Shown here one piece after another: positions 20,050-47,217 of a stretch of 64,000 bases of DNA; position 1 is the first letter of the stretch, and the number at the start of each line of letters is the position of its first letter. Location of the stretch: NCBI RefSeq assembly GCF_963924675.1, contig NC_089219.1:151982288-152046287 (forward strand), given 5' to 3'. The stretch is from Phocoena phocoena. Taxonomy: Eukaryota > Chordata > Mammalia > Artiodactyla > Phocoenidae. The notes under the pieces are model-generated. The model saw only the letters and a list, made by a program, of their open reading frames with translations. It searched no databases and was not told the DNA's origin. A program made the position numbers and the translations under genes.

Positions 20050-22232
20050 GATTTCCTCCTATCTCTGGTATTTAATGAAAGCATTGTGTTTTCACAAAGT
20101 TATATTGTCTTGCATAATTGTTTTTAAAGTCTTAGCAGTCTCTTTTGAAATACCCAAGCTAATTGTCTGAGGGATTTTCCTTAAACAAAATAAAGCAACA
20201 ATAACAGAAACTAGCCTCTGCAATATGGATAATAATATCTGTGCTGGAGGTCTTAAGGAGTGTGCAGAGGATGAAATGAGAAGATACGAGAGTGCTTTGA
20301 AAAGGCCAAAGCCATCAAAATTCTGCGACATATTATTATTTATCTATAGTCTATACTGATTCTTATTCCTACATGAGCAGTTCCTTAACAAGTTAATATG
20401 GGTTTCTGCCACTTTCTTTTGTCCCCTAGAGTAATATGGCCAAATTACCCAACTGCTACTGTAAGTCTTTTGATAATGGCCTAGTCACTTGAGTCTGTTT
20501 GATTTCTCCTTTATCTTCCCAGTTTCTTGGCACCATTTGGTTTGGTAGCAGCTCCTTCTTACTCCCTGTGCATAATGATAACTTCTCTGTGTCTCTTGAC
20601 ATTTTACCATGGCAGTCTGCCTGTGAAGTCGACCAGTGCCTCCTTCTGTTTGAACTCAGGTTAAATTAATCATCTGACTTTCACATCAGTCTGTTGCCAT
20701 GGGGCTTCTGATGTCACACTGTCGGTATTATGATTACCATAATACCTAACAGGCAAAAAGGGATTGGTTGTTAGTGGAAACCCTTGGGTGAAACTCACAC
20801 TGTTTTAGTAACCAACCCAACTGCATAGACTTTAGACAACCATGTAAATGGGTAAATGGATTAATCATTCAGTTGCATTCCATTTGAATATTTTTCTTCC
20901 ATATGTGTGTTCCCTTTAAGCAATCGTCTAGTGTCACTTGAAACTGATGAGGGCTCTTTTGGAGGTTATTTTTGGGAAGGTGGTGAAACAACAGACAGCT
21001 GTTCTTGGGAACAAGTGTCATAGGATCTGCCCAAGCTAGCTCCCAGTTAAAAAAAAAGTCTGAGGTGCATTGTCCTTTTCCTTCATAACGTTAGGTTGTT
21101 TACTAGTGGCCTGAAAGTGTCAGTTCAGCTTCCTAAACACATAGGAAAGAAGGAAACTTACATTTACTAAGAACCTACTGTGTGCCAGAATGTGACTCTG
21201 GTCAAAGTATAGCTTTAAGGTGGAGAACTGGTAAGCTAGGTGTTCTTGAACAACCCTGTTATACACGACAATTCGCAGCTCTTTCCAGCTTGTATACAAT
21301 GTTCTTCCTAATCGGACATTGACTGACCACCAATAAAGGCCAAGTCAGCACTTAAAATTGGTCCAGATCCTCCTATGCTGAGTAATTGTCCTGCAGTCAT
21401 TTTCACTGCAGTATTAAAAGACTGGAAACATAATAGAAACGAGGTACAATAAATAAACTGAATTAAAAGGTTTGTTAAAAGGTTTGACAAATGCGTCTGT
21501 CTTTTTTAGGATCTTGTTAAGTAGGTGGAGGGGTCACTTTTAGGGGATAAAGGGATCAACGGAATAAAACTGAACTTGAGGCTGTGCAGATTTGGAAAGC
21601 CATATCAAGACTTGCCTAAATCTATATAAATCAATTTGTGTGCCAGAGAATGAAGAGCTGACTTTTTTCAAATGCCAATTCAGCAATTACAAAGTCTGCT
21701 GGTGGTTAATTAAAAACTACCATCTCATTATGTTCAGAGTTAAATTACAAGTGTGAAAAGACTACTGTTTGCAATAACTGAATGCTCTGTACTCTCTGTG
21801 CTCTCATCATAAAGGAGGGCAGGGATAAATAACTTTTATTTAACTCACTGAAAAATCTCTCTCAGCTCTTTCATGTTTAATTAACTTCTTCCCAGAGCTT
21901 GGGTCTTAACATAGAGTTCCTAAGCAGTAATGGAAATATTTGTTCATTTTGTGCAGAAGACTTTTCTTCCATTAGTTGAGTAGAAAAGTTAGAAATAATT
22001 GAACCCCAAAGACGCTGGGAAAAATGACACCCATCCAAAGATTTTCATTGAGGCCACTAAATCCAGAAGAGATTTATGACAGAAAAATGGCAGGAAATGG
22101 TGATTTTTGCTTTACTGCTTGTGTGCCTCCAAGATTGGGGAGCTGGGGTCGTAAACACTTCTGTGGACTGGTCAAGTTTTAGTTCTCATTTGTAAGTCTG
22201 TCTTAAGGAAGTTAATGTTTTGCTATTTCAAG
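20050..22232. other. Mostly repeat-free intron upstream of LEMD1 coding exon 1
   Basis: Apart from a probable MIR scrap near 20215-20310, I see no repeats. The block 21600-21910 is AT-rich with 'ggtggttaattaaaaacta' and 'tgtttaattaacttctt' and may be a conserved non-coding element. Confidence 0.4.
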
Positions 22233-22352
22233 GATTCCACTGTCAGAAAAGAGACCAAACTTTTATCACCATGGTGGATGTGAAGTGTCTGAGTGACGAT
22301 GAATTATAGAACGAACTTGACAAGTTTGGATTTTCACCTGGCCCAATACTAC
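22233..22352 (+). pseudogene. LEMD1: LEMD1 coding exon 1 with premature TAG
   Basis: The probable acceptor is 'tgctatttcaag' ending at 22232. The ATG at 22271 sits in a strong context, 'atcaccatgg'. The frame reads MVDVKCLSDDEL, then TAG at 22307-22309, then NELDKFGFSPGPIL, and ends in phase 1 at the donor 'c/gtatgt' (22352/22353). Human LEMD1 has glutamine (CAG) at residue 13 as I remember it, so a single C-to-T change explains the stop. There is no later in-frame ATG in this exon. The next is in exon 2 (22995-22997), which would omit the LEM domain. Confidence 0.92.
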
Positions 22353-22923
22353 GTATGTATGTATGCAGCAAGTATTAGAGGGTACTCAATGATTACCTGT
22401 AAGCTACCTCCAAAGATTGAGAATTATTTACAGTGGAAGGAACCCATGCAATAAAAACCATTAAAATAGAAATAGGAAAAAAATTTTAAACCCAGCTCTT
22501 ACTCACACATTAGTAAATTTGGTGCCAAAGAGGAAGGATTGATTTTTTACAGTAGTGAAACACCAGTTACTCTTGATTATATCACCCTGGGCTCTTTTTG
22601 CATTTCTAGTATGTGCGCTGTGTTAACTGGTTATGTACTTACTGTCCATATTTCCCGCACATAGGATGTACAACTTCGTCCATCTTGTTCCCCGCTGTAC
22701 CCGATGCCTGACTCCGTGGCCAATCCACAGAGGCCCCACCTTAAGTGATGGTGGAAGGAAAGGAGTGAGTTGAGTAGTTGTGGGGTCTACCTTATTGTAA
22801 AAGCCATAATTAGCCAATAATGTAAGATACAAGAATAAGGACCTGAACTGTGAAATATTTTGAATCCAGTGAGATCACATACACAAACAGAGCAACTTAA
22901 CTGCTCTCCACATTCCTCCTCAG

Positions 22924-23046
22924 CTTCCACCAGAAAAGTGAAGGAAAAGAAGTTAGTGCAATTGTTGGTCTCAACTCCCTGTGCATCACCGGAGATGAAC
23001 GGACCCAGAGAGCTGGACAGAGCTCAGGACTATGATGACAGTGAAG
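22924..23046 (+). pseudogene. LEMD1: LEMD1 exon 2 (LEM domain second half and linker)
   Basis: The acceptor is 'cattcctcctcag' and the donor is 'gaag/gtaccg'. Joined in phase 1 to exon 1, it reads PSTRKVKEKKLVQLLVS followed by TPCASPEMNGPRELDRAQ and an acidic end YDDSE. The STRK, EKKLVQLL and MNGPREL blocks identify LEMD1 strongly. At the usual 'K-L-Y-E-K-K' of LEM domains this copy has K-V-K-E-K-K, losing the conserved Leu-Tyr pair, which fits relaxed constraint. The intron between exons 1 and 2 is only 571 bp. Confidence 0.93.
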
Positions 23047-23463: not shown

Positions 23464-23828
23464 GACTTCCCTGGTGGTGCAGTGGTTAAGAATCCGCCTG
23501 CCAATGCAGGGGACACGGGTTTGAGCCCTGGTCCGGGAAGATCCCACGTGCCGCGGAGCAACTAAGCCTGTGCGCCACAACAAATGAGCCTGCGCTCTAG
23601 AGCCCGCGAGCCGCAACTACTGAGCCCACGTACCACAACTACTGAAGCCTGCGCGCCTAAAGCCCGTGCTCCACAACAAGAGAAGCCACCGCACTGAGTA
23701 GCCCGCGCACTGCAACGAAGAGCAGCCCCCGCTCGCCGCAACTAGGGAAAGCTCGCACACAGCAACAAAGACCCAACACAGCTAAAAATAAAATATAAAT
23801 AAATTTTTTAAAAAAATTTTTAAAAAAT
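23464..23828 (+). mobile_element. Long CHR-type SINE with perfect TSD
   Basis: A sense copy from 'gacttccctggtggtgcagt' to an A-rich tail, about 365 bp, with the internal 'cacaactactgaag' repeats of the long form. The 15-bp TSD 'gaaatatgaactagg' is perfect (23449-23463 and 23829-23843). Confidence 0.95.
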
Positions 23829-25491: not shown

Positions 25492-25833
25492 TAGGGCTTC
25501 TCTGGTGGCGCAGTGGTTGGGAATCCGCCTGCCAATGCAGGAGACATGGGTTCGAGTCCTGGTCCGGGAGGATCCCACATGCTGCGGAGCAGCTAGGTCC
25601 GTGCGCCACAAGTGCTGAGCCTGCGCTCCAGAGCCCACGTGCCACAACTACTGAGCACGCGTGCCATAATAACTGAAGCCCACGTGCCTAGAGCCCGTGC
25701 TCTGCAACAGGAGAAGCCACCGCAATGAGAGGCCTGTGCACCGCAAGGAACAGTGACCCCCTGCTCGCCGCAACCGGAGAAAGCCTATGCACAGCAAAGA
25801 GGATCCAATGCAGCAAAAAATAAATTAATTAAT
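25492..25833 (+). mobile_element. Long CHR-type SINE with perfect TSD
   Basis: A sense copy starting 'agggcttctctggtggcgca' with the long-form body and tail 'aaaaaataaattaatt'. The perfect 15-bp TSD is 'aaaatcccctgcatt' (25477-25491 and 25834-25848). Confidence 0.95.
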
Positions 25834-26815
25834 AAAATCCCCTGCATTAAAACCTCTGCTGAATGTCCAACAGCACACAACTGCTCCAAGTTTATCAAAA
25901 TGCTTCTTCACAGACTGAAGCCGAGGGTTGATTAACAACCTTTTCTGCTCCTGGCGGTTCCCCTGATTTTAAAGCCTTTTTGCACAGGTTTGGCCTTCCC
26001 TCCCCTGGATGCTTCTTGGGATACAGAAGAAATCCTCCTTCCCTGTCTTGACAATCAGGGATGCATGAGGCTTACAGCTGTTTTGAAGGGGCAATGACTA
26101 GACTAAAAACGCGCCCAGATGAGCAGCCAGCTCAGGCTCTGCAATGTATTTCTCTCAGAGGCGTACAAATGTGACAGCCTCCCTGGTAGAAGCCCTCCCT
26201 GTGCTCCCAGGGGAAGGCCTGTGTGTTCCACAAAGGCCACTGCAGAAATGCTCTTTTCCCTCAGAAAGGCAAAGTGAATTTTCTTCCCCTCACAAAAATC
26301 TTTTGCCCTACAGTTGAGAGAATTCACTCCTACCATTGGTGTGTATTCCCTTTGCTAGCTCATATGTTCTCATGGTCTATTTTCCTTTTGTTTCCCATGA
26401 TCCAGAGCTTAATGCCACTATCATTTCAAAAGGAAATATCATATTCTCATCAGAAAAAAACAAGGGACCCAAAAAAGTATGTACAATTCTAATGCATGAA
26501 TACTTTTACACATATATTAAATGTAGAAAATAGCACTTTTCATGTGTATTAAGAAGGGAAACAGTCACTACATTCTGTTACAATGGTAAAATCCTAGTTT
26601 AAAACAGCTCATTTTAATGAAGGTTTCTGTTTTCTGAAACTATCTCCACGTTCTGGCATAGGACCCAGAGTCACAGGGTCCTCCTGCGCCATCTCCTCAC
26701 CCTGAGATAGCCACCCTCTCTCCCCTCCAGCTGTTGTCCCCTCTCTCTCCTTTTGCTGCCCGTGGTCTCGTATAGACCCACAGTGAGCATGGAATAACTA
26801 TGAGTTCCTGTTCCC

Positions 26816-30749: not shown

Positions 30750-32000
30750 CATTTTTTTGAACAATTTATTTTGAGATAAGTTCAAACTTAGGGAAAGTTG
30801 CCAGAATAAGTTCAAACTTAGGGAAAGTTGCCAGAATAGTACATAGAATTCCCATAGCCCAGATAATCTAATTTTTACCTTTTACCACACTTTTTTTTAA
30901 TTGAACTATAGTTGATTTACAATGTTGTGTTAGTTTCAGGTGTACAGCACAGTGATTCAGTTATACATACATATATATATATATATATTCTTTTTCAGCT
31001 TCTTTTCCCTTATAGGTTATTACAAAATATTGAGTATCGTTCCCTGTGCTATACAGTAGGTCCTTAGTGTGTGTGTGTGTGTGTGTGCATGCAGGTACCT
31101 TACCATTATGTCTTTCTGAACCACTGAGAGCAAACTGTAGACATGAAGCCCCTCCGCCTTCCAGCATGTATTCTGCTACCCCCAAAGGATACTTTCCCAC
31201 ATAACCACCGTATAACACTCCAAATAATGAAATTTACATTGATTCAATGCTAACATCCAATATTCAGACCCCATTCAGATTTCATCAACTGTTCCAATAA
31301 TATCTTTTGCTTTCTGGTCCAAGGCCAGTCCAGGAACATGTGTTGCCTTTAGTTGTCAGGTCTTTTCAGCCTCCTTCAGTCTGGAACAACAGTGCCTCAG
31401 TCTTTCCCTGTCAAATGCCCTTGACTGTTTTAAAGAGCATAGGTCTTTCATTCTGCAGGTGATTTCTCTGATTTTTCTTTTGACTATTCATAGAGGCCAT
31501 GTATCCAGGCAGGAATTCTTCAGAAATTATGCTGTGCTCTTCTAATTCTGTTTCACTGCTGGTAATGCCAGCCTTAATCACCTGGAAAAGTTGGTGTCTC
31601 TCAGATTCCTCCATAAAGCCATCATTTTCCCCTTTGGAACTGAACAGTATTTTGTGGGGAGATATTCTGAAATGACACCTCATCAAACCTTATCCATTAG
31701 CCCAGTACCCGTAAGTGACTGCCTAATTCAACTTCCATCATCATCATGGCCCATTGGAAGTTTCTATTTCTATTATTTCTTATAAATTTATTAGTTGGTA
31801 TTCTATTGTGAGGAAGACTTTCCCTTCACCCTCATTTATTTATTTATTTGTTGGTTGATTGGTTGGTTGGTTTGTCCATATGTCCATTCATTCATTCATT
31901 CATTCATACTAGTATGAGTTCATTGACTCTTCACTTCAGTGGCTGTATCTGTTGATATGATTATTTATCCTAATGCTCAATTTGTCCCAGATTTGGCTAG
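30750..32000 (-). repeat. Antisense L1M remnant with nested younger L1
   Basis: 'tcagatttcatcaactgttc' and 'ttttgtggggagatattctg' are L1M phrases on the reverse strand. A younger antisense L1 3' end interrupts it at about 30890-31075 ('gatttacaatgttgtgttag' to 'gtgctatacagtaggtcc'), followed by a (GT)n tract at 31067-31086. The left part also holds a 30-bp tandem duplication at 30776-30835. Confidence 0.75.
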
Positions 32001-32990: not shown

Positions 32991-33478
32991 TACTCTCTGT
33001 GTCTCAGTTGCTATTGTTGCTGATAATATACCTTGTGGGCCTATAATTATCATGTGCAGGGCCTACCTCAAGTGCTGCAATCAGAAGGCCCAGTGTACCA
33101 AGGGAATATACTACCATTAAGACTACCATTAAGTGTGTGGTTTGAGTCGCATGTCAAGATTTTAGGAGACCTGATCAGGTTAAACATCTCTACAACAGTT
33201 TCTTAATTAATTGAAAAGCATCCTTATTCCCAATAGTAGTTATATATTACAGTTGGATCAAAGTGAAGAGTAAATTACATATTCTATAACTACTTAATAA
33301 GCCCTTTGTTCTTACCTATGACATGTGCTAATGGGAGCTAAATGCCATCCTTACAAGGAATGTAATTTAACATGCTTCTTGTAAAAATACTGACCTCCTG
33401 GTAGATATGCTTAAATATGCCTGATGATCAATATACCTTTATCTTATTGATTACATGCTGATTCTTTCTGTGTAGTAG

Positions 33479-33561
33479 AACCCAGTTTTGAAATACAAGA
33501 GCAGCAGGAAGAGACAGTGAAACCAAATTCTGATTACAATGATTCTAAGATGATAATAAAG
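33479..33561 (+). pseudogene. LEMD1: LEMD1 exon 3 (linker) with NAGNAG acceptor
   Basis: The acceptor 'tttctgtgtagtag' offers two AGs three bases apart, so the exon may start at 33476 or 33479. Both keep the frame. It reads (E)PSFEIQEQQEETVKPNSDY then NDSKMIIK and ends exactly at a codon before the donor 'aaag/gtaaac'. The sequence is acidic and unstructured and much less conserved than exon 2. I assign it from phase, canonical sites and position, and from the NDSK..K end resembling the remembered human linker. No stop occurs in this frame. Confidence 0.8.
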
Positions 33562-46046: not shown

Positions 46047-46123
46047 AGACCCAAGGCTTCCATCAGTAAACCAAAAGCCCTAGAAGGCTTCTGCCTGGAT
46101 TCTAAGCGTTCTGAGGAAAGAAG
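46047..46123 (+). pseudogene. LEMD1: LEMD1 exon 4 (basic linker)
   Basis: The acceptor is 'tttttttgattcattag', preceded by a (TA)n tract, and the donor is 'agaag/gtaatg'. In phase 0 after exon 3 it reads RPKASISKPKALEGF then CLDSKRSEERR, ending in phase 2. The CLD-K-S--RR pattern matches the remembered human LEMD1 linker. There is no stop in this frame. The intron to exon 5 is 894 bp. Confidence 0.85.
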
Positions 46124-47017: not shown

Positions 47018-47217
47018 GTGTGCTGCGAGAGCATCAAACGTCAGATTCAAAGCATGGAAATAACATCAGAGAGAACGCCTGCTGCATAGTGAACAGGAGC
47101 GCTGGGAGCAGGAACATAGAAACGTTTCCAGCAGGCTTGAAACTTGCTGTGTTTGGCATCTTCAACACTGTGATATTTGTCTACATAACTGTGGAAGGGA
47201 AGCCACTCTTTGGTTAA
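47018..47217 (+). pseudogene. LEMD1: LEMD1 last exon with +1 frameshift; membrane tail
   Basis: The acceptor is 'tactgttttcacag'. Joined in phase 2, the upstream frame reads RCAARASNVRFKAWK then TAA at 47061-47063; AARA matches the human protein. The next frame reads HGNNIRENACC... on to FPAGLKLAVFGIFNTVIFV and YITVEGKPLFG, then TAA at 47215-47217, which is the family's membrane segment and C-terminus. The switch lies near 47046-47055 and is explained by one extra base. The hydrophobic segment itself is well kept, so the shift may be fairly recent. Confidence 0.92.

Follow-up and report, generated by a model that had tools for sequence, protein, structure and literature searches.

The window, i.e., the whole analysed stretch of 64,000 nucleotides from Phocoena phocoena, very probably contains the intron-bearing LEMD1 locus of the porpoise as a putative unitary pseudogene, in which a stop codon acquired on a stem lineage would have been followed by later decay in the porpoise line. 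Two disabling mutations sit in this original intron-bearing locus: an in-frame TAG at 22307 in the first coding exon, and a break of the reading frame in the last one, leading to TAA at 47061. A two-lesion LEMD1 pseudogene in porpoise is considered to be real. A preliminary description of this DNA had suggested lineage-specific loss of the gene from the TAG; the case is stronger than first proposed, since two lesions are present rather than one.

Translation of 22271-22352 (+) yields MVDVKCLSDDEL, then the stop (TAG at 22307-22309), then NELDKFGFSPGPIL. The TAG at LEMD1 codon 13, read directly from the DNA, agrees with the preliminary description, as does the otherwise intact state of the ATG exon: the start context is ACCATGG, the donor at 22353 is C/GTATGT, and the LEM N-terminus is recognised by Pfam. 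With X placed at the stop, exons 1-2 match the Pfam LEM domain (PF03020) over residues 3-42 with 66.7 bits (cut-off 24), and in PDB the LAP2 and emerin LEM domains are retrieved as well (7 sequences at E≤0.1). The spliced exons have 145 matches in protein databases at E≤0.01, the best 120 of which are all named LEMD1 or LEM domain-containing protein, or are hypothetical or unnamed. Given the Pfam score and these 145 matches, the assignment to LEMD1 is not due to chance, and a wrong exon or wrong gene is ruled out by the same two lines of evidence. The Gln given for human codon 13 in the preliminary description is present in the human protein (P0046). It also holds that no later in-frame ATG precedes the end of the LEM domain; the next one after the TAG is located at 22995 (codon 52), past residues 3-42.

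LEMD1 comprises five coding exons in the window (22271-47217, + strand; Table 1), arranged in order with matching phases and with GT/AG sites kept. The coding exons other than the first were located by tblastn using human LEMD1 as query, and their bounds were then read from the DNA. For the upstream exon, coordinate 20623 is the start of the match rather than a fixed 5' end; for the alternative exon, the alignment begins at 33475 and the exon start follows from phase. A retrocopy is ruled out by the presence of introns. Rfam at gathering thresholds gave no matches in the window, and no mir-135 landmark was found there. A perfect 30-base tandem duplication (30776-30838, 2.1 copies, 100 % match) lies in the intron that separates exon 3 from exon 4. 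Two short 22-base arrays (23600-23657 and 25631-25688) resemble the tail of cetartiodactyl SINEs, presumably of the CHR type.

Table 1. LEMD1 features in the window (positions in the window; a slash in a splice site marks the exon boundary)
Feature	Position	Strand	Remarks
Upstream exon	20623..20659	+	VKSTSASFCLNS; phase 1; donor G/GTTAAA; resembles N-terminal extension of pig LEMD1 model
First coding exon	22233..22352	+	120 nt, phase 1 to phase 1; ATG at 22271; N-terminal half of LEM domain
Premature TAG (codon 13)	22307..22309	+	Gln in 129/140 exon-1 LEMD1 proteins among the matches listed
Coding exon 2	22924..23046	+	second half of LEM domain; CAG acceptor, AG/GTACCG donor; open frame
Coding exon 3	26406..26476	+	CAG acceptor, GTATGT donor; open frame
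Alternative exon	33476..33561	+	28/29 residues identical to sperm whale model P0087
Coding exon 4	46047..46123	+	TAG acceptor, AG/GTAATG donor; open frame
Coding exon 5	47018..47217	+	frame from exon 4 ends at TAA 47061-47063; tail in other frame FPAGLKLAVFGIFNTVIFVYITVEGKPLFG, stop at 47215-47217
Probable frameshift site	47058..47060	+	A-run one base longer than other cetacean proteins imply

The second lesion is located in exon 5, into which the frame of exon 4 continues as RCAARASNVRFKAWK before it stops at TAA 47061 (codon 133). The membrane segment is encoded at 47125-47214 in a frame other than that of exons 1-4; upstream, in exon 4, a TAG at 46081 closes this tail frame, and no ATG in the five spliced exons yields both the LEM domain and the tail. 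At 47058-47060 the window reads Ala-Trp-Lys-stop, whereas other cetacean proteins read Ala/Ser-Trp-Asn-Asn (RFKAWNNIREN in the full-length narwhal, baiji and white-beaked dolphin models, RFKSWNNIREN in blue whale). The break is probably a one-base insertion, i.e., an extra A. Compared with the LEMD1 of relatives, the tail in the wrong frame represents a lesion, not a different gene. Within the membrane segment (47125-47214), Asn is encoded (GIFNTVIF) at a position occupied by Ile in the models of narwhal, white-beaked dolphin and baiji.

Two protein searches (best 120 of 145 and best 120 of 129 matches) provided 141 distinct proteins, 140 of which contain exon 1 among the matches listed. Codon 13 in these 140 corresponds to Gln in 129 cases, to a gap in 2 and to another residue in 9 (E 1, H 2, R 4, D 1, W 1). 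A gap anywhere in exon 1 occurs, among the matches listed, only in the vaquita (P0001) and narwhal (P0002) models (2/140). The comparison with relatives that had been proposed earlier was made at the level of protein models and found Gln13 in seven other cetacean species (baiji, white-beaked dolphin, blue whale, orca, bottlenose dolphin, sperm whale and gray whale) as well as in hippo, pig and cow. The vaquita and narwhal models are without codon 13; those of the seven other species retain Gln. Cetacean-wide loss is ruled out by the same models. From these sequences, the codon-13 stop seems to be confined to Phocoenidae and Monodontidae among the species compared.

Judged from protein models, the orthologue is intact in relatives, with Gln13 and a full tail in white-beaked dolphin (Lagenorhynchus albirostris, P0004), blue whale (Balaenoptera musculus, P0005), pig and cow. 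Both cetacean proteins possess the LEM domain and the membrane segment and are colinear with the spliced window query (90 % identity for P0004, 89 % for P0005); both carry Gln13 and read on without interruption in the exon-5 part, in contrast to the TAG and the broken frame of the window. The baiji (Lipotes vexillifer) model P0003 is flagged LOW QUALITY and carries an extra LEM residue (ERKLLVQLL), which may reflect a separate lesion or a faulty assembly. The models of orca (P0061), bottlenose dolphin (P0062) and gray whale (P0090) end or diverge after exon 2 (SEGTIRSC..., SEGAVRSY...); these endings look like read-through of the exon-2 donor, which is GTACCG in the window. A 114-residue ORF with LEMD1 exon 5 from ENA (P0141; 2 contigs, the longest of 4519 bases) is by eye nearest to the blue whale model and points to stray whale-like DNA in sequence archives; a scan of viral contigs for stray cetacean DNA found none.

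The best database match to the spliced exons among the matches listed is the vaquita (Phocoena sinus) model P0001 (UniProt A0A8C9CZ46), all 182 residues of which equal the window exons once the TAG codon and one exon-5 base are omitted. This match points to a porpoise, probably the vaquita or a near relative, since exons this short could be identical in a related phocoenid. The narwhal (Monodon monoceros) model P0002 (UniProt A0A8C6AV55) is without codon 13, shows no break in exon 5, and also lacks three exon-4 residues (SKR) present in the window (46047-46123), which may be a real deletion or another skipped stretch. Both models represent the same gene and appear intact with codon 13 absent, whereas the window has TAG; the vaquita model additionally skips one exon-5 base where the window keeps the frame break. 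Since UniRef/UniProt is their only source, both are presumed to be Ensembl models. For Ensembl, a 2016 description states that, in models with one internal stop, one pipeline substituted a short frameshift intron for it, and that frameshifts were bridged by introns of 1, 2, 4 or 5 bp (PMC4919035). If both are Ensembl models, this practice explains the vaquita protein, because the window shows the TAG, and the same hiding of a stop is the likeliest explanation of the codon missing from the narwhal model. The codon-13 lesion is probably common to porpoise and narwhal. On annotation flaws, PMC12822975 gave no direct evidence. Apart from these two, no porpoise or monodontid LEMD1 protein is present among the matches listed (best 120 of 145 and 120 of 129), where 90 % clustering and the 25 and 9 further matches could conceal such proteins.

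It is unlikely that the TAG is a porpoise-only mutation and that the narwhal carries an unrelated deletion of codon 13. The narwhal is known from a protein model, and its missing exon-4 residues could be a real deletion, which would fit this explanation; against it, none of the other 138 proteins among the matches listed has a gap in exon 1, and a missing residue of exactly this kind is predicted by the handling of single stops described for Ensembl (PMC4919035).

Function by way of another transcript, either with exon 22233-22352 skipped or with a restart at the codon-52 ATG, is very unlikely. Exon 1, being symmetric (120 nt, phase 1-1), can be skipped without loss of frame, exons 2-4 are open, and alternative isoforms are common among LEMD1 models of other mammals. 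However, skipping costs the N-terminal half of the LEM domain, TAA 47061 would still terminate both products ahead of the membrane segment, and the tail frame is blocked by TAG 46081. Of upstream starts, one traced from a relative, the ATG of the pig model, is GTG in the window (exon 20623-20659).

Both lesions can be single-base differences, and errors of assembly or base calling in an animal that has the Gln codon and no frameshift would produce them; the vaquita model may derive from the same assembly as the window and was not counted as independent support for either lesion. Such errors are nevertheless highly improbable, considering that the model of another species, narwhal, is without the same codon and that two errors within one 180-codon gene are unlikely. 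Read-through or editing of the TAG to give full-length protein has a practically negligible probability: the sequence past the stop is still LEM-like, but the exon-5 break would not be cured, and mammalian read-through is known for a context of the TGA-CTA type, unlike the TAG-AAC found here.

The reading of an inactivated LEMD1 implies the following course of events. A Gln codon, as the relatives suggest, would have changed to the TAG now present at codon 13, so that translation, and with it the LEM domain, would end after residue 12. The exon-5 break, presumably through insertion of one base, ends the frame before the tail, and a restart at the codon-52 ATG would give a product of about 81 residues that lacks both the LEM domain and the membrane anchor. 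Because the narwhal model is without the same codon, the gene models suggest a single origin of the TAG on the stem lineage common to Phocoenidae and Monodontidae; because that model is without the exon-5 break, the second lesion would be later, in the porpoise line. Any transcript would likely be a target of nonsense-mediated decay, since the stop lies ahead of four exon junctions, at distances of 43 to 314 nt, and germ cells would then lack a BAF-binding LEMD1. Phocoenidae are sister to Monodontidae, and crown delphinoids are dated to 19.78 million years, according to McGowen et al. (PMC7164366). The TAG would accordingly be younger than the crown-delphinoid split (~19.8 million years) and older than the split between porpoise and narwhal. 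It counts against loss that the frame has stayed open in exons 2-4 and that every splice site is GT/AG. However, a stretch of about 270 nt would be expected to gather few mutations in that time, as estimated from general rates, and the open exons are thus no evidence of function.

Besides the two lesions, the LEM domain differs at a tyrosine (TRKVY; aligning to the LAP2 Tyr) that is Lys in exon 2 of the window (22924-23046). This position holds Tyr in 123 of the 141 proteins listed, Lys in 5 and Ser in 1 (gray whale), with 12 outside the pattern used. The Lys carriers are all five delphinoid models among the matches listed (P0001, P0002, P0004, P0061 and P0062), and Tyr is kept in the baiji, sperm whale and blue whale models. 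The change hints at a constraint weakened before the stop arose. Pfam LEM scores amount to 71.3 bits in blue whale, 70.9 in sperm whale, 71.2 in pig and 70.5 in cow, compared with 65.8 in orca, 56.1 in white-beaked dolphin, 66.3 in baiji and 64.6 in orangutan; they are not diagnostic of weakened constraint, since the low-scoring baiji and orangutan proteins keep Tyr, and the scores of P0001 (55.4) and P0002 (56.4) are reduced because a residue is missing. A protein tree of 13 proteins joined Phocoena and Monodon at support 74 and showed no faster tip change in these two (0.0235 each; white-beaked dolphin 0.053, baiji 0.041, blue whale 0.059). One may tentatively consider a staged erosion in delphinoids, somewhat short of an even chance, in which the Tyr-to-Lys change in an ancestor shared by dolphins, porpoises and narwhal weakened BAF binding, the TAG on the stem lineage then abolished the protein, and the frameshift followed in the porpoise. 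If this were true, sperm nuclei in a whole whale branch would be formed with no testis LEM protein, a loss concealed by public models.

LEM domains bind BAF, and loss of LEMD1 would remove one testis link to BAF; as a guess, other LEM proteins may compensate. The preliminary description had called LEMD1 a testis-expressed nuclear-envelope gene. Its expression mainly in testis agrees with what is reported for the human gene, but the reference to the envelope is loose, as the human protein was reported in the nucleoplasm of spermatids and not at the periphery; BAF and BAF-L were likewise seen in the nucleoplasm (PMC6008938). The cancer/testis status of LEMD1 is reviewed elsewhere (PMC13144012). 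No title on a Lemd1 knockout was found among the literature matches listed, PMC3613368 offers only a methylation marker, and literature on testis gene losses in cetaceans offered no direct evidence on LEMD1.

Should the proposed loss be right, porpoises and the narwhal/beluga family would both be natural knockouts for a testis-type LEM protein and could help to show whether shaping of the sperm nucleus requires LEMD1. In addition, two public models show a broken gene as intact, which was seen for one and is presumed for the other, and this misleads surveys of gene presence. A search of the literature, with supplementary tables and subscription papers outside its reach, found no report of LEMD1 loss in cetaceans. 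The loss reveals no new kind of system. Lineage-specific gene loss leaving unitary pseudogenes is a known kind of event in cetaceans, and the LEMD1 loss looks like an ordinary event of this kind in a new instance: as in other unitary pseudogenes of cetacean lineage-specific loss, the intron-bearing locus itself is inactivated while the gene is intact in relatives.
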